A stretch of 64,000 nucleotides of DNA from positions 62,001 to 126,000 of the forward strand of contig NZ_JAHBOI010000005.1 of the NCBI RefSeq assembly GCF_018531425.1, in the 5' to 3' direction. This document shows positions 48,583-57,208 of the stretch, in pieces. The stretch is from Paenarthrobacter sp. DKR-5 (lineage in GTDB: Bacteria > Actinomycetota > Actinomycetes > Actinomycetales > Micrococcaceae). The translations under genes were made by a program, and so were the position numbers. Each line of letters opens with the position of its first letter. Positions within the stretch are counted from its first letter, which is position 1. The notes beneath the pieces are model-generated. The model had not been told where the DNA came from and did no database searches. It was given only the letters and a program-made list of their open reading frames with translations.

Positions 48583-48616
48583 CGGCACCGGGCCGCCAAA
48601 CTGGTGCCGTTTCGTT
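48583..48616 (+). terminator. Intrinsic terminator of the ara operon
   Basis: CGGCACC at 48583-48589 pairs with GGTGCCG at 48603-48609, followed by TTTCGTT. It begins six bases after the stop of the last ara gene and before the LGFP gene, so it closes the operon. Confidence 0.65.
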
Positions 48617-48759
48617 ACCCAATTCGCCTGTGCCCGTCCGTATTCTGTTGCCGGGGGAAACAAAATAAGGCGAGGCAGCTGTCTCGGCCGGGTCGATCCC
48701 GACACAACACCGGTTCTTGGCAGCAGCGCGCGACGCTGCAGAAAACAGAGGCTCACGCA

Positions 48760-49857
48760 GTGTCGCTCAAGCGCAATCTCTCAGTCGCTATGGCCGCCCT
48801 GGCCCTGGCGGCCTGTTCCCTCGCAGCGGCCGGCCCCGCGGATGCGGCGACCTACCGCACCGGCGGTGCCATCGGCGTTCGCTACCTGACGACCGCCGGC
48901 ACCCTCGGCGCACCCATCTCGAACGAGTACAGCGGCAGGACAGGACGGGTCCAGAACTTCCGCTACGGCTCCGTCTATTGGTCCGCGGCGACCGGGGCGC
49001 ACAGCGTGCATGGCGGCATCCTGGCTGAGTACCGGACCCAAGGGTCCGAGGCCGGCGGACTCGGCCTTCCGCTGACCGAGGAAATCAAGCTGGCGGGCGG
49101 CGTGTACCAGCAGTTCAAGGGCGGTTTCATCTACTGGGCGGGCGGACACGGTGCGCACGCGGTGCTCGGCGGGATCCGCTCACGCTACGCGCAATTGGGT
49201 GCTGAGAAGGGCGTGCTGGGGTACCCGACGTCGGGCGAGATCACCGTGAAGGTGCCCTACGCCGCGAATCCTTCGATTTCGGCTGCCGTCGTCACCCAGA
49301 CGTTCGAGCACGGCATCCTCACCTGGAGCTCCGCACCCGATATCCGCAACGACCACCGGGCCCACGAAGTCACCGGGGAGCTGTACAAGAAGTACCAGTC
49401 GTTTGGCGGCGTGAACGTGCACGGCTTCGCGCTCTTCTCGGCAATCCCGATCCAGAGCGGCACCGGATCCAGCGGACCGGATGACGCGCTCTTCCAGGCG
49501 TTTCAGAACACTTGGATGACGTGGTCGGCTGCCACCGGGGCCCACGTGATCACCTTCCCGTGCCAGTGCCAGGACTGCCGCAACCGCGAAGGCCTCGGGC
49601 TGCCGACGACGGATCCGTACCAGTCGGCGACTGCCGGGCTGGTCCAGGATTACGAGGGCGGACGCGTTGAGGTCGGTTCGGGTGGAGTCAAGGTCATCCT
49701 GGGCACCGACCTGCCGCCGGTGGACGCTCCGGCATCGCCGAGCCCGACGGCCACGGCGACTGACACCGCGACGGCGACCGCGTCCCCGACGCAGTCGGCG
49801 ACGGCGGACCCGACGGCCACCGCCGCCCCGACGGATTCGGCGACGCCGGCACCGTAA
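48760..49857 (+). CDS. Secreted LGFP-repeat protein with a Ser/Thr/Pro tail
   Basis: A 365-residue exported protein. The signal peptide (SLKRNLSVAMAALALAACSL) is followed by cleavage near ADA-AT. Repeats of the LGFP type cover about residues 30-290, each with the pattern LG-x-P-x-(S/T)-E, YQ-x-F-x-G-x-(I/V)-YW and GAHAV-x-G-I. LGFP repeats bind or anchor to cell-wall polymers in actinobacteria. The last 45 residues are an Ala/Thr/Pro tail. A CQCQDC cluster inside one repeat is unusual for an exported protein. The GTG at 48760 has only a weak ribosome site. Confidence 0.82.
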   Translation: MSLKRNLSVAMAALALAACSLAAAGPADAATYRTGGAIGVRYLTTAGTLGAPISNEYSGRTGRVQNFRYGSVYWSAATGAHSVHGGILAEYRTQGSEAGGLGLPLTEEIKLAGGVYQQFKGGFIYWAGGHGAHAVLGGIRSRYAQLGAEKGVLGYPTSGEITVKVPYAANPSISAAVVTQTFEHGILTWSSAPDIRNDHRAHEVTGELYKKYQSFGGVNVHGFALFSAIPIQSGTGSSGPDDALFQAFQNTWMTWSAATGAHVITFPCQCQDCRNREGLGLPTTDPYQSATAGLVQDYEGGRVEVGSGGVKVILGTDLPPVDAPASPSPTATATDTATATASPTQSATADPTATAAPTDSATPAP

Positions 49858-49943: not shown

Positions 49944-51131
49944 TTACGCGGAGGGCCAGCCGGTGTACGCCTCGGCCAGATACGCCCGGCCGTGCCGCGA
50001 CGAGACAACCGAGCGCAGCTCGCCCAGCTGGCGGGAGCGCTCAAAGTCGTCCGCGGCCGGGAGCTGGTGGAGCATCGACGTCATCCAGTAGGAGAAGTGC
50101 TGGGCCTTCCACACCCGGTCCAGGGCGCCGCCGCTGTACCCGTCGAGGAGCGCCGTCGATCCGGACCTGAAGAAGCTCTCAAAGGCTTCGAAGAGGACCT
50201 TGACGTCGTGGATTGCAAGGTTCAGGCCCTTCGCGCCCGTCGGCGGGACCGTGTGCGCGGCGTCGCCGGCGAGGAAGAGCTTGCCGTGGCGCATCGGCTC
50301 CTGCACGAAGGACCTGAACGGCAGCACCACCTTGTCGATGACGGGACCCTCTTTGAGTTCGAACCCGTTTCCGTTGACGCGCCGGCGCAGCTCGGCCCAA
50401 ATCCGGTCGTCGTCCCATCCGGCCAGGTTCTCCGCCGGGTCGCACTGGAAGTACATGCGCTGGACCGTCTCGGTGCGCTGGCTGATCAGTGCGAAGCCGT
50501 GCGGGGAGTTGGCGTAGATCAGCTCGGGGGAGCTGTGCGGTGCTTCCGCCAGGATGCCGAACCAGGCGAACGGGTATTCGTGGAAGTATCGGCGGCGGGC
50601 GGCCTCCGGGATCCGGGACCGGCAGTGGCTGCGCGATCCGTCGGCGCCCACCAGGAACTCCGCCTGCAGCTCCCAGTCCGTGCCGTCGACGTCGGTGAAC
50701 AGCACCCGCGGATTTGTCTCCACGTCCTCCGCGCTCACATCGGTCACACCGTAACGCACGTCGCCGCCGTCGGCTTCGCGCCGGGCCGCCAGATCCGCGA
50801 AGACATCGGTCTGCGGGTAGAGCCAGACAGCCTCGCCGACCAGGTCCTTGAAGTCGATCCGGTGGCTCTCGCCGTTGAAGCGAAGCTCAATCCCGTCGTG
50901 CTTGTCGCCCTCCCGCAGCACCCGGTCCGAAACGCCGCTGTCCACGAGCAGGTTGACCGTCCCGTGCTCGAGGATCCCGGCCCTCACGGTCCGGTGGATC
51001 TCCTCGCGGCTGCGGAGCTCGATGACTGTCGAGGTGATGCCCGCCGTGGCCAGCAGGTGGGAAAGCATCAGGCCGGCCGGACCTGCCCCGATGATGGCCA
51101 CCTGGGTCTTGACTGTCGTGCGCTGCGTCAT
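49944..51131 (-). CDS. pobA: 4-hydroxybenzoate 3-monooxygenase
   Basis: PobA hydroxylates 4-hydroxybenzoate to protocatechuate with FAD and NADPH. The 395 residues match the family length: FAD motif QVAIIGAGPAGLMLSHLL at 11-28, the DG motif FLVGADGSRSHCR, the FAD-binding GKLFLAGDAAHTVPPTGAKGLNLAIHD, and Tyr-containing active-site region VQRMYFQCDP. It is divergent from an acyl-CoA ligase gene. No other protocatechuate-pathway gene is in the window. Confidence 0.95.
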   Translation of the reverse strand: MTQRTTVKTQVAIIGAGPAGLMLSHLLATAGITSTVIELRSREEIHRTVRAGILEHGTVNLLVDSGVSDRVLREGDKHDGIELRFNGESHRIDFKDLVGEAVWLYPQTDVFADLAARREADGGDVRYGVTDVSAEDVETNPRVLFTDVDGTDWELQAEFLVGADGSRSHCRSRIPEAARRRYFHEYPFAWFGILAEAPHSSPELIYANSPHGFALISQRTETVQRMYFQCDPAENLAGWDDDRIWAELRRRVNGNGFELKEGPVIDKVVLPFRSFVQEPMRHGKLFLAGDAAHTVPPTGAKGLNLAIHDVKVLFEAFESFFRSGSTALLDGYSGGALDRVWKAQHFSYWMTSMLHQLPAADDFERSRQLGELRSVVSSRHGRAYLAEAYTGWPSA

Positions 51132-51228
51132 CGCATTCCTCGCTTGGTCGGGGAACCGTACTTGGTTCCGAAAGCCTCCGTTCCCAGTGTGCGGCGGACC
51201 GCGTGACCGGCGTTACACCGTTTCCGTT

Positions 51229-51243
51229 GAATGGAGTGCATTC
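51229..51243. promoter_or_regulatory. Candidate IclR-type operator between pobA and the CoA ligase gene
   Basis: GAATGGAGTGCATTC is an inverted repeat with perfect 5-base arms and a 5-base centre, the dimension of IclR-family sites. It lies 98 bases upstream of pobA and 60 bases upstream of the ligase. The IclR gene at 53058-53834 is a candidate partner. Confidence 0.4.
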
Positions 51244-51302
51244 CCGGTCGCGTGCGGCGGCCCCGATTCGCTCCGCCCGTCTGCCCGCGCAATGATGGCA
51301 GC

Positions 51303-52985
51303 ATGGCGAACACACAGCCCTGGGTGCGGAACTACCAGCCGGGCGTCCCGGCCGAGATCGAGCTGCCGACGCAGTCGCTCGTGGCGATGTTCGAAAGGTC
51401 CGTCGCCGAGGCGGGGACCCATCCGGCGATGGAGTTTTTCGGCCGGCGGACGACCTACGCGGAGCTCGGCGAACAGGTTGAGCGCGCCGCGGAGGGCCTG
51501 CGCCGGCTGGGCGTGCGCGCGGGGGACCGGGTGGCGCTGATCCTGCCCAACTGCCCGCAGCATGTCGTCGCGTTCTACGCGGTGCTGCGCCTGGGCGCCG
51601 TCGTCGTCGAGCACAATCCGCTGTACACCTCCCGCGAGCTGCGCCACCAGTTCGAGGACCACCAGGCGCGGGTCGTGGTCGCTTGGGACAAAGCAACTGC
51701 CGCCCTCCGCGAGTTCCCCGCGGACATCGAAATTGACCATGTCGTCTCGGTGAACCTCCTCGACGCCTTTCCCGCGGCAAAGCGGCTTGCCCTTCGCCTG
51801 CCGGTGAAGAAGCTGCGCGCCACCCGCGCCTCCCTCACGGCACCGGCGCCAGGCACCACGACGTGGAAGGAACTGCTCAGCCACGGCAGGATCGACTCCT
51901 CCCACCCGCGCCCGTCGGTCAAGGACCTCGCAGCGATCCAGTACACCTCGGGCACCACGGGCCGCCCCAAAGGCGCCATGCTCACGCATTTCAACCTCTA
52001 TTCCAACGCTCTGCAGGGCGAGGCATGGATGCAGGGCGCGGAGTACCGCAAGGAGGTGTTCTATGCGATCCTGCCGATGTTCCACGCCTTCGGCATGACG
52101 CTCTACCTCACCTACGGCGTCCTCAAGCAAGGGCTGCTGGTCCTTTTCCCCAAGTTCGACGTCGACCTGGTGCTGGACGCGATGAAGAAGTCGCCTGCCA
52201 CCGTCTACTGCGCGGTGCCGCCCATCTACGAGCGCACTGCGATGGCCGCGAAGGAGAAGGGCATCTCGCTGCGCTCCTGCAGGTTCTGCATTTCCGGCGC
52301 GATGAACCTGCCTGACCACGTCGTGGAGCTGTGGGAATCGGTCTCCGGCGGCCTGCTGGTGGAAGGCTACGGAATGACCGAGTCCTCCCCGGTGGCCCTC
52401 GGCAACCCCTTCCACCCGAGCCGGCGGACGGGCACGATCGGGGTGCCGTTTCCCTCGACCCTGATGAAGGTCGTGGATGTCGACGACGTCGGCAGGGAAG
52501 TGCAGCGGGGCGAACCGGGCGAACTGCTGCTCAAGGGTCCGCAGGTCTTCCAGGGCTACTGGAACAACCCGGAGGAAACCGCCAGGACCCTCACCGCCGA
52601 CGGCTGGCTCCGCACCGGCGACGTCGTCACGGTGGACGCGGACGGGTTCACCACGGTGGTGGACCGGGCCAAGGAACTGATCATCACGGGCGGTTTCAAC
52701 GTGTCGCCCACCGAGGTCGAGGCGGCACTCCGCCTGCACCCGGACGTCAAGGACGCGGCCGTCGTCGGCAAGCCGCTCGAGCGCGGCGGGGAAATGGTGG
52801 TTGCGGCGGTCGAGCTCGAGCCGGGGACGGCGCTCGACGAGGAAGCGCTGCGGGCGCACTGCCGCGAGCACCTCGCTGCGTACAAGGTGCCGCGCCGGAT
52901 CGTGGCCATCGACGAGATGCCGAGGTCCATGCTCGGAAAGATCCTGCGCACACAGGTGCGGGACCGGATACTGCCCGGGCTCTGA
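51303..52985 (+). CDS. Acyl-CoA synthetase (AMP-forming)
   Basis: A 560-residue acyl-adenylate ligase: P-loop YTSGTTGRPKGAM near residue 218, the A5 motif GYGMTESSP, and the C-terminal DGWLRTGDVV and AYKVPRRIV...GKILRT segments with catalytic lysine near the end. Overall pattern is of medium/long-chain fatty acid:CoA ligases. Being divergent from pobA it may instead activate an aromatic or phenylpropanoid acid; sequence alone does not decide. ATG at 51303. Confidence 0.88.
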   Translation: MANTQPWVRNYQPGVPAEIELPTQSLVAMFERSVAEAGTHPAMEFFGRRTTYAELGEQVERAAEGLRRLGVRAGDRVALILPNCPQHVVAFYAVLRLGAVVVEHNPLYTSRELRHQFEDHQARVVVAWDKATAALREFPADIEIDHVVSVNLLDAFPAAKRLALRLPVKKLRATRASLTAPAPGTTTWKELLSHGRIDSSHPRPSVKDLAAIQYTSGTTGRPKGAMLTHFNLYSNALQGEAWMQGAEYRKEVFYAILPMFHAFGMTLYLTYGVLKQGLLVLFPKFDVDLVLDAMKKSPATVYCAVPPIYERTAMAAKEKGISLRSCRFCISGAMNLPDHVVELWESVSGGLLVEGYGMTESSPVALGNPFHPSRRTGTIGVPFPSTLMKVVDVDDVGREVQRGEPGELLLKGPQVFQGYWNNPEETARTLTADGWLRTGDVVTVDADGFTTVVDRAKELIITGGFNVSPTEVEAALRLHPDVKDAAVVGKPLERGGEMVVAAVELEPGTALDEEALRAHCREHLAAYKVPRRIVAIDEMPRSMLGKILRTQVRDRILPGL

Positions 52986-53015
52986 ACTCCGGTGCGAGCG
53001 GGCCGGAACCCGGCA

Positions 53016-53072
53016 CGAAAGGGCGCCAACGGCGACGTCGGGCGCGGAAAGGTCGCCTTAGGTGGCCGTTCG
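53016..53072. repeat. Convergent-junction palindrome, copy D (diverged)
   Basis: The left arm 53016-53036 (starts CGAAAGGGCGCC) is the imperfect inverse of the right arm 53052-53072 (ends GGTGGCCGTTCG), 16 of 21 positions matching. It lies after the CoA ligase stop (52985), and its right arm includes the last codons of the convergent IclR gene (stop 53058). It shares the GGCCGTTCG end with the other copies. Confidence 0.65.
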
Positions 53073-53834
53073 AGGGAGGGTGCCGGAGCCGGGCTGCCGC
53101 CCGAGTTGCCGTCCGATGCCCCGGGCGGCCGTCCGCAGCGCGGGCACGAGCGCCTGGATGCGCGCCTCCTTCAGCGGCACGACGACGCCGAGCGCCGCGA
53201 CCGTCCGTCCCTGCTGGTCGGCGACCGGTACGGCGATTCCCCATGTGTCCGGGTCCACGACGCCGGCCAGTTGCGCATAGCCCAGCCGGGAGGCCTCGGC
53301 CAGAAGGCCCCGGACGTCGTCGGCGGTGACCTTCCCGGCGGGATCGTGGAACTGCGCGAGGTACCGTGCCTGCACTTCCCGGGCCTGGTGGGACATCAGA
53401 GCCACTCCCGCTGAGGAGACATGCACGGGCATCCGGCCGGCGATCCGGGCACGGTTGGCCACCGAGCCGCGCCGCGACATCCGCTCCACGAAGAGCGCCT
53501 CCCAGCCCTCGAGCACGGCCAGGTTCACGTTCTGGTTCAGGACCTGCTGGATGTCCTCCATGAACGGTGCCGCGGCCTGGCGCAGCTGCAGCGCGGGAGA
53601 GCTCCGGTTGACGAGTTCCCACAGCCGCAGGCCCATCCGCACCGATCCGCCGGGGCCGGCCTCCAGCAGGCCTTGCTCGGCCAGCTGCCGGACCAGGCGG
53701 TGGGCCGTGGCCTGCGGCAGACCCGCCCGGTTCGCCAGTTCGGTGAGCTGGACGGCGTCGGCGCTCTCCGGAAAGGCAGCGAGGATCCGCACCACGCGCT
53801 CGACGACGGAGTCGCCCGAGGCGGAGTTTGCCAT
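53058..53834 (-). CDS. IclR-family transcriptional regulator
   Basis: A 258-residue IclR-type regulator: winged helix at about 8-70 (VVERVVRILAAFPESADAVQLTELANRAGLPQATAHRLVRQL) and a GAF-like ligand domain with RMPVHVSSAGVALMSH and the GYA-x-x-GVVDPDTWGIAVPV region. IclR proteins often bind aromatic or small organic acids, and pobA lies nearby. The ATG at 53834 directly abuts the stop of the upstream TPR gene, so the two are co-translated. The target is not known. Confidence 0.9.
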   Translation of the reverse strand: MANSASGDSVVERVVRILAAFPESADAVQLTELANRAGLPQATAHRLVRQLAEQGLLEAGPGGSVRMGLRLWELVNRSSPALQLRQAAAPFMEDIQQVLNQNVNLAVLEGWEALFVERMSRRGSVANRARIAGRMPVHVSSAGVALMSHQAREVQARYLAQFHDPAGKVTADDVRGLLAEASRLGYAQLAGVVDPDTWGIAVPVADQQGRTVAALGVVVPLKEARIQALVPALRTAARGIGRQLGRQPGSGTLPRTAT

Positions 53835-54848
53835 CTAAGCCTCCTCCAGCTGGCGGGCCCTCTCCTGCGCCCCGGCCCCACGGAACAGCCGCGCGGCCGA
53901 CTCCAGCCTTTCCTGCGCTTCCCCGTGCTGCCCGAGTTGCTTCAGGGCCCGCGCAAGCAGCGCGGTGGCTTCGGCGGCGGTCTGCGCGGCGATGCTGCCC
54001 CCGCCGGAGTCGCAGATGGGGGCCAGGAGGTCCACCGCCGACTGGGCGTGCCCGGCGAGCAGGTTCCAGTTCGCCCGGGCGATATCGAGGAGCAAATGGT
54101 CCTGCACGGAGCCCCCGGCAATCTCCATCGCCAGTTCCGCGCGCTGCAGGCACTGAAGCGTGCCGGCGTCGGCTATGCCCGCGGCAAGCCGCATGGCGGC
54201 GGAGGCCTTGTTGAACTTGGCCCACAGGTCCAGGTCGCGGCCCGGGGAGAAAGTGTCCGTGGCCCGTTCATGGAAGTCGACGCCGTCATCCGGGCGGTCA
54301 TTGAGGAAGGCAACGTTGCCGATGGTCCAGTAGGCCCTTCCGACGTCCTGCTGGTTCATGTCGTCCGTGATCTCGTCCTTCATGGCCAGGCAGTGGTCCC
54401 AGGCTGACCCAAGCTCCCCGCTCTCCGCGAGGGCGGCGACGAGGGCCTGCCGCGCCTGCAGCAGCAGGGCACCGTCGCCGCGGCCGAACTGCAGGATGCC
54501 GACGCTGCGCGTGGCCGCTTCAACGGCCTCGGCCAGCCGTCCGGTGGACTGCAGGCACTTGGCGGCGAGCACCAGGGCCCGCGCCAGCAGTCCGGGCTCC
54601 GCGGACGCGACAGGGGAATCGATCAGGGCCTGCACCAGCGGAAGGCACAGCTCCCGCTGTCCTGCCTCGACGAGACAGTCGCCCTCGAAGAAGCGCATGT
54701 GCCACGCCGACGTCGAATCCCCGGCCTCTTCTGCGAGACGGGAGGCCTCGCGCGCGGAGGCGGCTGCGGCAGCGAAGTCGTGGGCGGCCCGCAGCTCCCG
54801 CGCCCGCATTTCGGCGAGGACGTATTCCATCGGAGCTGACTTGGGCAT
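53835..54848 (-). CDS. TPR-repeat protein, possible peptide receptor
   Basis: A 337-residue all-helical protein made of tetratricopeptide-like helix pairs across its whole length (for example AAASAREASRLAEEAGDSTSAW near the start, TGRLAEAVEAATRSVGILQ, and the closing LGQHGEAQERLESAARLFRGAGAQERARQLEEA). It has no DNA-binding domain, so it resembles Rap-like TPR receptors rather than XRE-TPR regulators. The ATG at 54848 is chosen (TTG at 54869 and ATG at 54830 are possible). It abuts an IclR gene and is divergent from a gene for a tiny exported peptide. Confidence 0.8.
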   Translation of the reverse strand: MPKSAPMEYVLAEMRARELRAAHDFAAAAASAREASRLAEEAGDSTSAWHMRFFEGDCLVEAGQRELCLPLVQALIDSPVASAEPGLLARALVLAAKCLQSTGRLAEAVEAATRSVGILQFGRGDGALLLQARQALVAALAESGELGSAWDHCLAMKDEITDDMNQQDVGRAYWTIGNVAFLNDRPDDGVDFHERATDTFSPGRDLDLWAKFNKASAAMRLAAGIADAGTLQCLQRAELAMEIAGGSVQDHLLLDIARANWNLLAGHAQSAVDLLAPICDSGGGSIAAQTAAEATALLARALKQLGQHGEAQERLESAARLFRGAGAQERARQLEEA

Positions 54849-54919
54849 AGGGCAATTATGGGGCCGCAAACCCGCTGGGCGGCACCAGAAGCGGCTGGTC
54901 GCGGCGGACTAGCATATTT

Positions 54920-54942
54920 ATTTTCAAAGTTATGGATTTTCA
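54920..54942. promoter_or_regulatory. AT-rich direct repeat between TPR and peptide genes
   Basis: ATTTTCA occurs at 54920-54926 and again at 54936-54942, sixteen bases apart, inside a stretch (54912-54945) far more AT-rich than the rest of the window. It lies in the 165-base divergent promoter region and is a natural candidate for a regulator site controlling one or both genes. Confidence 0.4.
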
Positions 54943-55013
54943 TGCACCGAGGCCCTCATACTGAAGGCGCCTCACAATTTCCACTTCCATCACACCAGTA
55001 TCAGGAGTAGCAC

Positions 55014-55160
55014 ATGAAGAAGCTCGTTTCCGCCGCGCTGGTTGCGGCTGCCCTGGTTGCCGGCGGCGTCTCGGTTGCGTCCGCTGTCTCCGCGGCTCCC
55101 TCCGCCGACAGCGGGCACTCGGTGGCCGTGGGTTGGTGGCCGAAGGCGGCCACCAACTAG
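55014..55160 (+). CDS. Small exported peptide, candidate signalling peptide
   Basis: A 48-codon gene for a short Sec-exported precursor. MKK is followed by a hydrophobic core (LVSAALVAAALVAGGV) and a signal-peptidase site, predicted at AVSA|APSAD, leaving a mature peptide of about 21 residues that starts APSADSGHSV and ends GWWPKAATN. AGGAG at 55003-55007 stands seven bases before the ATG, and a strong terminator follows (55201-55238), so expression signals are complete. It is divergent from the TPR protein gene. The Trp-Trp-Pro core and small size suggest a signalling peptide; an antimicrobial or structural role is possible. Confidence 0.8.
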   Translation: MKKLVSAALVAAALVAGGVSVASAVSAAPSADSGHSVAVGWWPKAATN

Positions 55161-55200
55161 CTCTGCCGGCTGCAGGAACCCTGCAGGACCGGGTGCGAGG

Positions 55201-55238
55201 GCGGAGGCACCCGACGAGGCGCCTCCGCTTTCGCGTTT
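55201..55238 (+). terminator. Intrinsic terminator after the peptide gene
   Basis: GCGGAGGC at 55201-55208 pairs perfectly with GCCTCCGC at 55221-55228, followed by TTTCGCGTTT. A smaller hairpin, CTGCAGG/CCTGCAG (55170-55186), lies between the stop and this terminator. Confidence 0.75.
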
Positions 55239-55260
55239 CCAGGAGCTCCGTTTCCGGCCT

Positions 55261-56796
55261 CTAGGCGCCGGCCGGCCACCCCCGCACCAGCTCCTCGAAG
55301 GCAGCCGCCGGGACGGGCCGCGAGAAGTAATATCCCTGCCCGCTCTCACAGCCGAGTTCACGCAGGGTGCGGGCCTGCTCCGGGCTTTCGATGCCCTCGG
55401 CGAGGGCGCGCATGCCGCAGGCATGAATCAAATCCAGAATCGCCGCCACGAACGGTCCCTGCGTCGAGCAGGGGTTGAGATCCTTGATCAGCGACCGGTC
55501 CATCTTCACGACGTTGACCGGCAGTTTCTGCAGATAGCTGATGGCTGAATAGCCGGTGCCGAAATCGTCGATCTCCAGCCGCACCCCGAGCTTGTGCAGC
55601 CCCAGGAGCGAATACTGGTCCACCTCGCCGCCGGCCACGGCGGAGGACTCGGTGATCTCGATGATGAGTTCCGCCGGGTCGGTGCCGGAGGCCAGCAGGG
55701 CGTCCCGGACGATGTCGATGAGCTGAAGGCTTTGCAGCTCGGTGCTCGAGATGTTCACCCGGAGGCTGAAGCCGGGGGGAGTCAGTCCGCTCTCGCGCCA
55801 TGCCTGCAGCTGGCGCGTCCCTTCACGCAGCACCCAGCGCCCGACGTCCTCGATCAGGCCGGTGGACTCTGCCAGCCCGATGAACTGGTCCGGCATCAGC
55901 AGGCCGCGGGCCGGGTGGTCCCAGCGGACGAGCGCCTCGACGCCTTCGAGTGCGCCCGTGGCCAGTTCGACGACGGGCTGATAGTGCAGCACCAGCTGCC
56001 CCTCTGCGATGGCGGACTGCAGTTCGGTCGTGGCAAGAGTTTCGAGTTCCCGCGCGTACAGCATCACCGGTTCGAAAATCTTGACCGAGCTGCCCTTCTG
56101 CGCCTTCGCTGCGTACATCGCTATGTCCGCGTGCAGGATGACTTCCTCGGCGGACTGGCCCGCTTCGGCGACCCGGATGCCGATGCTCGTGCCGCAGGAG
56201 GCCCGGCGGCCGTCGAGGTCGAAGGGCTCGCGCATGCTCTCGAGGATGCGCGACGCGACGCTGCGGGCCCTGTCTTCGGTCGAATGCGGCAGCAGCACGG
56301 CGAATTCATCGCCGCCGAGCCGCGCGACGGTGTCTCCGCTGCGTACGCACCCGAGCAACCTGCCGGCAGTGAGGCGCAGCAGCTCGTCGCCGGCCGCGTG
56401 CCCCATGGTGTCGTTGACGCCCTTGAAGGAGTCCAGGTCCAGGATCAGCAGTGCCGGCGCCGGCTCGCCAGCCATTGCCGCCTCAAGGGTGTGGCCGAGC
56501 ACGCGCGTGAAGGCCACCCGGTTGCTCAGCGACGTGAGCGAATCGGTCAGCGCCGCCCGTTCGAGCTCGGCCTGCGCCGCGACGAGCTCCGCGGTGCGCG
56601 TGGCCACCCGCTCTTCCAGTTCGCTGTAGCTGGCGGCGAGGTCCTTGGCGAGGATGTTCACCCCGATCATCACGGCGTCGACTTCGTCCCGGGCCGGCGA
56701 GGAGTGCAAGCGCACCGAGTGGTCCCCGGCGGCGAGCCGCACGATGCCGTCCACCAGCTCGCCCAGGCGCGGGTCGCGCGTTGTTTCAGCCGTCAT
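55261..56796 (-). CDS. GGDEF-EAL protein (cyclic di-GMP synthesis and/or breakdown)
   Basis: A 511-residue soluble protein. An N-terminal HAMP-like helical segment (about 5-60) and a coiled coil (about 55-82) lead into a GGDEF domain with intact GGDEF at 161-165 and an inhibitory-site RxxD at 152-155. The EAL domain follows with EAL at 287-289 and the catalytic residues of the NISS, IIEITES, IDDFGTGYS, VKMDRS and AEGIES motifs all present, so both activities are possible. It has no membrane segment. The gene overlaps the STAS-like gene by 11 bases. Confidence 0.92.
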   Translation of the reverse strand: MTAETTRDPRLGELVDGIVRLAAGDHSVRLHSSPARDEVDAVMIGVNILAKDLAASYSELEERVATRTAELVAAQAELERAALTDSLTSLSNRVAFTRVLGHTLEAAMAGEPAPALLILDLDSFKGVNDTMGHAAGDELLRLTAGRLLGCVRSGDTVARLGGDEFAVLLPHSTEDRARSVASRILESMREPFDLDGRRASCGTSIGIRVAEAGQSAEEVILHADIAMYAAKAQKGSSVKIFEPVMLYARELETLATTELQSAIAEGQLVLHYQPVVELATGALEGVEALVRWDHPARGLLMPDQFIGLAESTGLIEDVGRWVLREGTRQLQAWRESGLTPPGFSLRVNISSTELQSLQLIDIVRDALLASGTDPAELIIEITESSAVAGGEVDQYSLLGLHKLGVRLEIDDFGTGYSAISYLQKLPVNVVKMDRSLIKDLNPCSTQGPFVAAILDLIHACGMRALAEGIESPEQARTLRELGCESGQGYYFSRPVPAAAFEELVRGWPAGA

Positions 56797-57208
56797 GGGT
56801 GAAGGTCTCCAGCCACGTCAGCGCCTCGGATTCGGACGAGAAGTAGCGCGCGGGAATCCCGGGCAGCTGCGCGCGGAGCAGGTAATGCGCCAGCACGCGA
56901 TCCACCGGGCTGCTGCCGATCAGGCCGAAGGCGGTGACCACCGTGGAGCGCAGGTAGACGTCCCGCGCGTCGTCGTTGATCGAGTTGAGCCCGGAGACGT
57001 CGATCAGGACAGGCCGCTTGCGGGCACCGGCCGCGTGCCGGACAGCCGCCCCGGCGGCCTCGGCGCATTCCGCCCCGAGGGAGGTGCCGCCCGGGAGCCG
57101 GAGCACGATCACCCCGCTGTCCGTCATCGTCACCGTGACCGTGTGCGCGGGGGAGGCGGGCAGCCCGTCCCCGGGTTCGCGGCTGGCCGCCACGATCTCG
57201 GCGGTCAC
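56786..57208 (-). CDS. STAS-like domain protein (DUF7793 type)
   Basis: A 140-residue single-domain protein with the STAS-like pattern: a beta-rich start (TVTVTMTDSGVIVLRLPGG), a helix, the core strand PVLIDVSGLNSINDDARDVYL, and a final helix. It lacks a clear phosphorylatable serine in the anti-sigma-antagonist position. The start is GTG at 57208. Its last 11 bases overlap the GGDEF-EAL gene, so it may be a partner or sensor for cyclic di-GMP turnover. Confidence 0.78.
   Translation of the reverse strand: MTAEIVAASREPGDGLPASPAHTVTVTMTDSGVIVLRLPGGTSLGAECAEAAGAAVRHAAGARKRPVLIDVSGLNSINDDARDVYLRSTVVTAFGLIGSSPVDRVLAHYLLRAQLPGIPARYFSSESEALTWLETFTHDG

Follow-up and report, generated by a model that had tools for sequence, protein, structure and literature searches.

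Some receptors of the RRNPP type carry a helix-turn-helix (HTH) domain, as do NprR and PlcR, and some lack one, as does Rap. In the ComRS/XIP system of streptococci, a short peptide with adjacent Trp residues is sensed inside the cell. RRNPP(A) systems are defined by a small exported propeptide encoded adjacent to a tetratricopeptide repeat (TPR) protein of 250–500 amino acids (PMC10075063), and multi-copy propeptides have been reported for Phr (PMC11343458). The available sections of PMC10075063 and PMC13220807 place RRNPP peptide signalling in the Firmicutes, and the RRNPP scan in the former covered Firmicutes and viruses. According to the same source, actinobacterial signals are typically small molecules made by enzymes, and an older review mentions cyclic or modified peptides and butyrolactones (PMC4748050). 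No TPR/propeptide system is named for Arthrobacter or Streptomyces in the available sections of PMC4748050 and PMC13220807, and PMC9765709 contained none of the terms searched for actinobacteria or other phyla. Here we analyze a 64,000-nucleotide stretch of the genome of Paenarthrobacter sp. DKR-5 (contig NZ_JAHBOI010000005.1, positions 62,001 to 126,000), henceforth referred to as the window, in which a small gene for a putative exported peptide lies divergent from a gene for a TPR protein. An earlier reading of the window from its letters alone (the sequence-only reading) had taken the peptide as a signal, the TPR protein as its receptor and an adjoining IclR-type regulator as the output, possibly acting on pobA and a ligase. 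Comparison with related genomes argues for the first two of these assignments and suggests that the output may be a different one.

The putative pheromone precursor has 48 amino acids and is encoded at 55014–55160 (+). Its ATG lies 6 nt after the ribosome site AGGAG (55003–55007, +), and CAGGAG is invariant in all 13 aligned upstream regions, including that of the window. The predicted protein starts with Lys-Lys, followed by a long hydrophobic stretch and an Ala-rich, cleavage-like region, and the C-terminal part reads ...GHSVAVGWWPKAATN. Leaders were called, here and throughout, from hydropathy and an N-terminal Lys/Arg rule. No Pfam domain scored over its cut-off in the peptide. The precursors of relatives align with it and have a Trp-Pro (W-P) core in common; in the window this core is VGWWPK (residues 39–44, codons at 55128–55145, +), which aligns with GWWPN, NWWPN and similar cores of relatives. 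A strong terminator-like hairpin lies 3′ of the gene (55195–55234, +). The region 55158–55245 folds at −50.1 kcal/mol (z −3.85, with none of 200 shuffles as good), though a simple terminator pattern scan did not list the hairpin. The putative peptide receptor is encoded divergently at 53835–54848 (−) and has 337 amino acids from its ATG, or 344 if an alternative upstream TTG at 54869 is the start. Pfam detected no HTH domain in it; only TPR models matched, all under cut-off. Its TAG stop (53835–53837) directly adjoins the ATG of the IclR open reading frame (ORF) at 53058–53834 (−). The sequence-only reading had described this arrangement (a 48-codon gene with AGGAG site, leader and terminator, divergent from a 337-residue TPR protein without DNA-binding domain whose stop touches the IclR start), and all of it is confirmed.

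TPR homologues were present in 222 of 395 genomes of the same family, spanning 17 of 32 genera. We scanned 1 kb upstream of all TPR genes in loci L032–L101 and of the window gene (73 genes in total). A divergent ORF with a leader and W-P was found upstream of 64 of them, and 37 of these ORFs have at least two W-P; one of the 64 (L079) is doubtful by eye. Under the same rule, 2 of 137 other long genes of the window and of larger stretches (mostly 4–5 kb flanks) were positive in their upstream regions, none with two W-P. Dinucleotide shuffles gave 120 positives out of 1460, and the same-strand region gave 4 out of 73. The precursors contain one to six core copies (27, 11, 10, 9, 4 and 3 precursors, respectively; n = 64), and six copies occur for example with GWWPN in L033, GNWPDPM in L093 and VGDWPH in L066. 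In a sample of named genomes, the best 80 of 288 relatives (Arthrobacter, Paenarthrobacter and Pseudarthrobacter), 79 loci have a precursor and 45 of these have at least two copies; this sample and the 73 genes share some genomes, and their counts are not independent. Loci L001–L031 stand outside the 73-gene count, and 21 of them (L001, L002 and 19 others) repeat genes fetched later. The ten that do not (L013, L014, L015 and L025–L031) all show a W-P leader ORF. The peptide scans excluded L102–L112, which are same-family TPR loci, as well as L245, L246, L256 and L284. Among the fetched TPR places, three had no locus and one more was a fragment. The pairing of peptide and TPR genes is far beyond chance.

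In three of the nine genes that the rule missed, the divergent ORF has 16–21 amino acids, no leader and a W-P ending: MRNFVSFISGRVNWPF in L062, ending in RVNWPF; MSLFKTPFHPAPKPCVGDWPD in L075, ending in CVGDWPD; and MSLLQRTIRPGLTCPVGDWPD in L078, ending in PVGDWPD. Release of the peptide without a general secretory (Sec) leader may therefore have evolved in some lineages. L047 and L049 each contain a tandem pair of HTH-less TPR/peptide cassettes whose cores differ (LIDDWPH in one, KVGNWPG or KIGNWPD in the other); the pair looks like the product of a duplication followed by divergence in specificity. An uncounted same-strand ORF of 24 amino acids with NWWPP is present in L063.

We assessed selection on the precursors and their co-variation with the receptors. 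The uncorrected ratio of nonsynonymous to synonymous polymorphism (pN/pS) is 0.45 in the group of the window and 0.28–0.42 in six other groups, two of them calculated partly on truncated precursors (L090, L053, L098, L099, L092, L093). We mapped the peptide letters of 67 labelled genes onto a tree of the 73 receptors, which was built by a quick search with Shimodaira–Hasegawa-like approximate likelihood ratio support only and places the window on a long branch. The letter before W requires 13 changes, compared to a mean of 32.3 and a minimum of 26 in 200 label shuffles; for the letter after P the values are 22, 37.1 and 33. WWP is found in all 20 rows of one receptor clade, the window included. 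Together, the precursors at 64 of 73 and 79 of 80 loci, their one to six cores and the letters that follow the receptor tree give strong comparative support to the proposal that the peptide would be the signal and the TPR protein its receptor.

The window genome has two members of the TPR family. The second, on another contig, is 39% identical to the first and has 426 amino acids with an N-terminal HTH domain (HTH_31 and HTH_3 over cut-off); its divergent precursor carries VGIWPN twice. HTH domains were found in 15 of the 43 receptors of the larger stretches. At all 19 tested HTH-type loci (L051–L053, L059, L061, L082, L084–L094, L098 and L099), of which 16 were aligned, TTGACA is followed after 28 nt by TGTCAA (18 loci) or CGTCAA (L091) upstream of the peptide gene. 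TTGACA and TGTCAA are exact inverted repeats of each other that flank the peptide promoter at constant spacing, and we consider this pair a candidate operator of the HTH-TPR protein. At window-type loci, a GGCGTGTC box precedes the −10 element (TATACT, TATAAT or TACAAT) by 8–9 nt in 12 of 13 aligned peptide promoters (L032–L037, L039, L041, L043, L044, L050 and L100). A promoter scan of positions 51000–57000 of the window returned no sigma-70 match. HTH-type cassettes adjoin purC and purD, named in the locus of the paralogue; this stretch recurs in all 15 HTH-type loci, and an ABC exporter pair lies near 12 of the 15 cassettes.

The AlphaFold2 model of the window TPR protein is all-helical, with a predicted local distance difference test score (pLDDT) of 95.5. 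It aligns with NprR (5dbk; Z 20.8, root-mean-square deviation 5.1, 313 residues aligned) and with a Rap protein together with its peptide (4gyo; Z 20.5, deviation 5.7, 307 residues aligned). The model of the HTH-TPR paralogue (pLDDT 88.5) has similar matches (LGN 27.5, NprR 21.2). TPR superhelices resemble one another; the predicted fold of the TPR protein is consistent with a peptide receptor and is no proof of one. A mobile-element origin was considered and rejected: a search of 72,556 plasmid records returned no match to the TPR protein, and the HTH-TPR profile gives two matches in viral contigs, each to the 45-residue HTH alone.

We searched for the system outside the family. A profile search of the order (248 genomes) returned near-full-length matches beyond the family itself in just one other, coded f17. 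Three f17 loci were examined: L114 carries three copies of VGGSWPT in a same-strand position downstream, L115 has a divergent leader ORF ending in SDTWPA, and L116/L247 has no W-P leader ORF. At the level of the class, HTH-TPR matches at 1e-20 occur in 11 of 246 genomes (families f1, f17, f27, f32, f35, f37 and f53), and a search of the phylum (246 genomes) gave four genomes with a match, all known already. The distant family f37, which comprises large-genome actinobacteria, has a match in 27 of 150 genomes. A leader ORF with [DGNSM][ILMV]xWP occurs at 11 of 29 f37 HTH-TPR loci, five of them with at least two W-P, compared to 5 and 0 of 1450 shuffles; this motif rule was chosen after a first look at the f37 loci, and the shuffles were scored with the same motif. 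Examples are DIEWP twice (L260), DISWP three times (L271) and IEWP five times (L280), and L251 and L265 have a W-P ORF by looser rules than this one. The W-P ORFs of f37 are divergent from, on the same strand as, or downstream of the HTH-TPR genes, some with two to six copies (L249, L251, L253, L260, L262, L266, L271, L273, L275, L276, L277, L280).

These observations suggest the following model for the window. A gene of its own, divergent from that of the receptor, encodes a 48-amino-acid precursor with a predicted Sec-type leader. The precursor would be exported and then cut down to a short VGWWPK-containing peptide, which would re-enter the cell through an oligopeptide permease; the genome encodes three oligopeptide-binding proteins of the PF00496 family. 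Co-occurrence, co-variation and fold suggest that the peptide would then bind in the concave groove of the 337-amino-acid TPR protein. Taken jointly, these four steps describe an RRNPP-like peptide pheromone/receptor pair in an actinobacterium, which we regard as probable from the comparative evidence. In a fifth step, the TPR protein might act in the manner of Rap on a protein partner, most likely a module of a GGDEF-EAL and a DUF7793 protein, tying peptide level to cyclic di-GMP (c-di-GMP); a Rap-like mode fits because the TPR protein lacks an HTH domain. On its own, we give this step roughly an even chance.

The candidate module lies beyond the peptide gene. The GGDEF-EAL protein (55261–56796, −), a conserved neighbour and the candidate output, has both domains over the Pfam cut-offs; the gene of its upstream partner, a DUF7793 protein (56786–57208, −; PF25056, 58.5 bits, cut-off 26), overlaps the GGDEF-EAL start with its end by 11 bases. 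This GGDEF-EAL gene, which the sequence-only reading did not mention, is the conserved partner of the cassette. In the larger stretches, 26 of 28 HTH-less TPR genes have a GGDEF-EAL gene no more than 5.5 kb away, on one flank of the cassette or the other, and none of the 15 HTH-type genes has one; in the named loci it accompanies 58 of 63 HTH-less and none of 17 HTH-type genes. The window genome (3.8 Mb) contains eight genes with EAL domains over the Pfam cut-off, and 30 of 90 genomes have a close homologue of this GGDEF-EAL protein. Among the 30 best homologues (L285–L314), DUF7793 is encoded beside 23, whether or not a TPR gene is present, and the 1.5 kb flanks contain a TPR gene in 13 cases and none in 17. 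DUF7793/GGDEF-EAL thus seems to be an independent module that is often joined by the peptide cassette, and the homologues without a nearby TPR gene mean that the output is not fixed. We regard the GGDEF-EAL neighbour as the likeliest single choice of output, with the balance about level between its being right and wrong. The pheromone and receptor could be correctly assigned while the TPR protein acts on another partner, such as the HTH-TPR paralogue or a protein that regulates the peptide promoter, with GGDEF-EAL only a syntenic neighbour. The 17 homologues without TPR gene favour this alternative, as do the two of 28 HTH-less genes without EAL in the examined flank and the recurrent GGCGTGTC box, at which some DNA-binding protein may act. 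However, the presence of GGDEF-EAL at 26 of 28 HTH-less genes on either cassette side and at 0 of 15 HTH-type genes speaks against it, and we consider another partner possible but the less probable explanation.

The IclR-type regulator was the output in the sequence-only reading, with pobA and the ligase as targets. The abutment of TAG and ATG suggests coupled translation in the window genome, but no IclR relative was found near the 42 other TPR genes of the larger stretches or in the 80 named TPR loci, and of the 73 TPR genes only that of the window abuts an IclR gene. The closest IclR relatives have a different neighbour: within flanks of 1.5 kb, pobA was found at 21 of 29 other loci and a TPR gene at none of them. 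Conserved TPR–IclR coupling was rejected on these counts, as was IclR as the output, and pobA as a target of the peptide system fared no better; we consider this explanation highly improbable. The IclR protein has HTH_IclR and IclR_C domains over the Pfam cut-off, and together with the pobA linkage of its relatives these are the features of PobR/PcaR-type regulators. Unlike these, it scores under the cut-off of the PcaR/PcaU/PobR model (97 bits, cut-off 285), and it is probably outside the peptide system. The window itself encodes a 4-hydroxybenzoate 3-monooxygenase at 49944–51131; its score exceeds the cut-off of one model for this enzyme but stays below that of TIGR02360, which is stricter. 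Because its relatives pair with pobA and not with TPR genes, the IclR protein looks like a PobR-like regulator of pobA that happens to abut the TPR gene. Two further explanations deny the peptide a signalling role. It might be a secreted effector, bacteriocin-like or at the surface, with the TPR protein as immunity or chaperone partner, and small leader-bearing multi-copy precursors do occur among effectors too. Yet the core is made up of a few conserved residues, and these change from one receptor clade to another, the HTH domains of 15 of 43 receptors fit regulators, and the HTH-less loci share the GGDEF-EAL neighbour, mostly with DUF7793; an effector is thus highly improbable. The leader and the Trp-Pro near the C-terminal end would also suit a peptide acting in cis while it is being translated, either a secretion-monitoring arrest peptide or a Trp leader peptide. 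This is extremely improbable given up to six core copies, often away from the C-terminus, and a gene that points away from the TPR gene and has a hairpin of its own at its end.

We note several observations that weigh against the pheromone/receptor model or its proposed output, in addition to the GGDEF-EAL homologues without TPR gene. Shared descent of two neighbouring genes would also give agreement between peptide letters and receptor tree, so the agreement indicates stable pairing and not binding. The core of the window has K where its 19 clade mates have N, D or H, and its peptide promoter (54930–54990) lacks the GGCGTGTC box found in 12 aligned relatives. For six of the 73 TPR genes (L063, L067, L073, L074, L080, L081), no peptide was convincing. 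In the named sample, L178 has no W-P precursor though TPR and GGDEF-EAL relatives are present; a loss of the signal gene is possible. Farther away, 18 of the 29 f37 loci fail the W-P rule, and the HTH-TPR loci L252, L254, L255 and L248 (families f27, f32, f35 and f53) have no W-P leader ORF. With regard to structure, TPR domains of eukaryotic LGN (Z up to 27.4) match the fold of the window protein best and rank ahead of the RRNPP proteins, and a search of the receptor profile against PDB chain sequences gave 50 distinct sequences to E 1, none named Rap, NprR, PlcR, PrgX, Rgg or AimR. Sequence and fold therefore do not settle RRNPP membership.

We compared the system to the described ones. Like Rap/Phr, NprR/NprX, PlcR/PapR and other RRNPP(A) systems of Bacillota, it combines an adjacent exported propeptide with a TPR protein, includes HTH and HTH-less receptors, and has multi-copy propeptides. 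The receptor of the window (337 amino acids) falls within the range of 250–500, and an adjacent propeptide with a predicted Sec leader, for which the described range is 10–100 amino acids, occurs at the 64 and 79 loci given above, a few precursors being longer than 100 amino acids. The HTH domain of the transcription-factor members is present in the paralogue and absent from the window protein. The system differs in its W-P core, in the association of HTH-less receptors with the GGDEF-EAL/DUF7793 module and in its host: the described systems belong to Bacillota or their phages and plasmids, whereas the named relatives here are Arthrobacter, Paenarthrobacter and Pseudarthrobacter. The non-Bacillota host limits a claim of RRNPP membership, not one of working alike. 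The adjacent Trp residues of the window core are a likeness to ComRS/XIP; here a Pro follows, the cores are often repeated and the precursors have leader-like starts. We found no report of a W-P peptide/TPR system among the titles and abstract starts listed in searches of open-licence PMC papers (preprints were outside this scope, and a report elsewhere is possible), and no occurrence of the W-P core motifs in the collection of such papers that was searched.

On balance, we lean towards the view that actinomycetes have their own broad family of intracellular W-P pheromone systems, reaching from Arthrobacter relatives to f37, in which HTH-TPR proteins would directly regulate genes through the paired TTGACA/TGTCAA and an HTH-less branch, that of the window, would act on GGDEF-EAL/DUF7793 and c-di-GMP. 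Signalling of this kind has so far been described mainly in Bacillus-type bacteria. A family of linear, often multi-copy peptides matched to their receptors would give actinobacteria a gene-encoded signal that can be synthesized, and a link to c-di-GMP, if true, would join population sensing to c-di-GMP-controlled processes. The pheromone question is directly testable, given the short cores and the apparently soluble receptors. Elsewhere in the window, positions 48604–49857 encode a protein with four LGFP-repeat stretches (PF08310, 160.8 bits) and a Thr/Ala/Pro-rich tail, which is probably associated with the cell wall.

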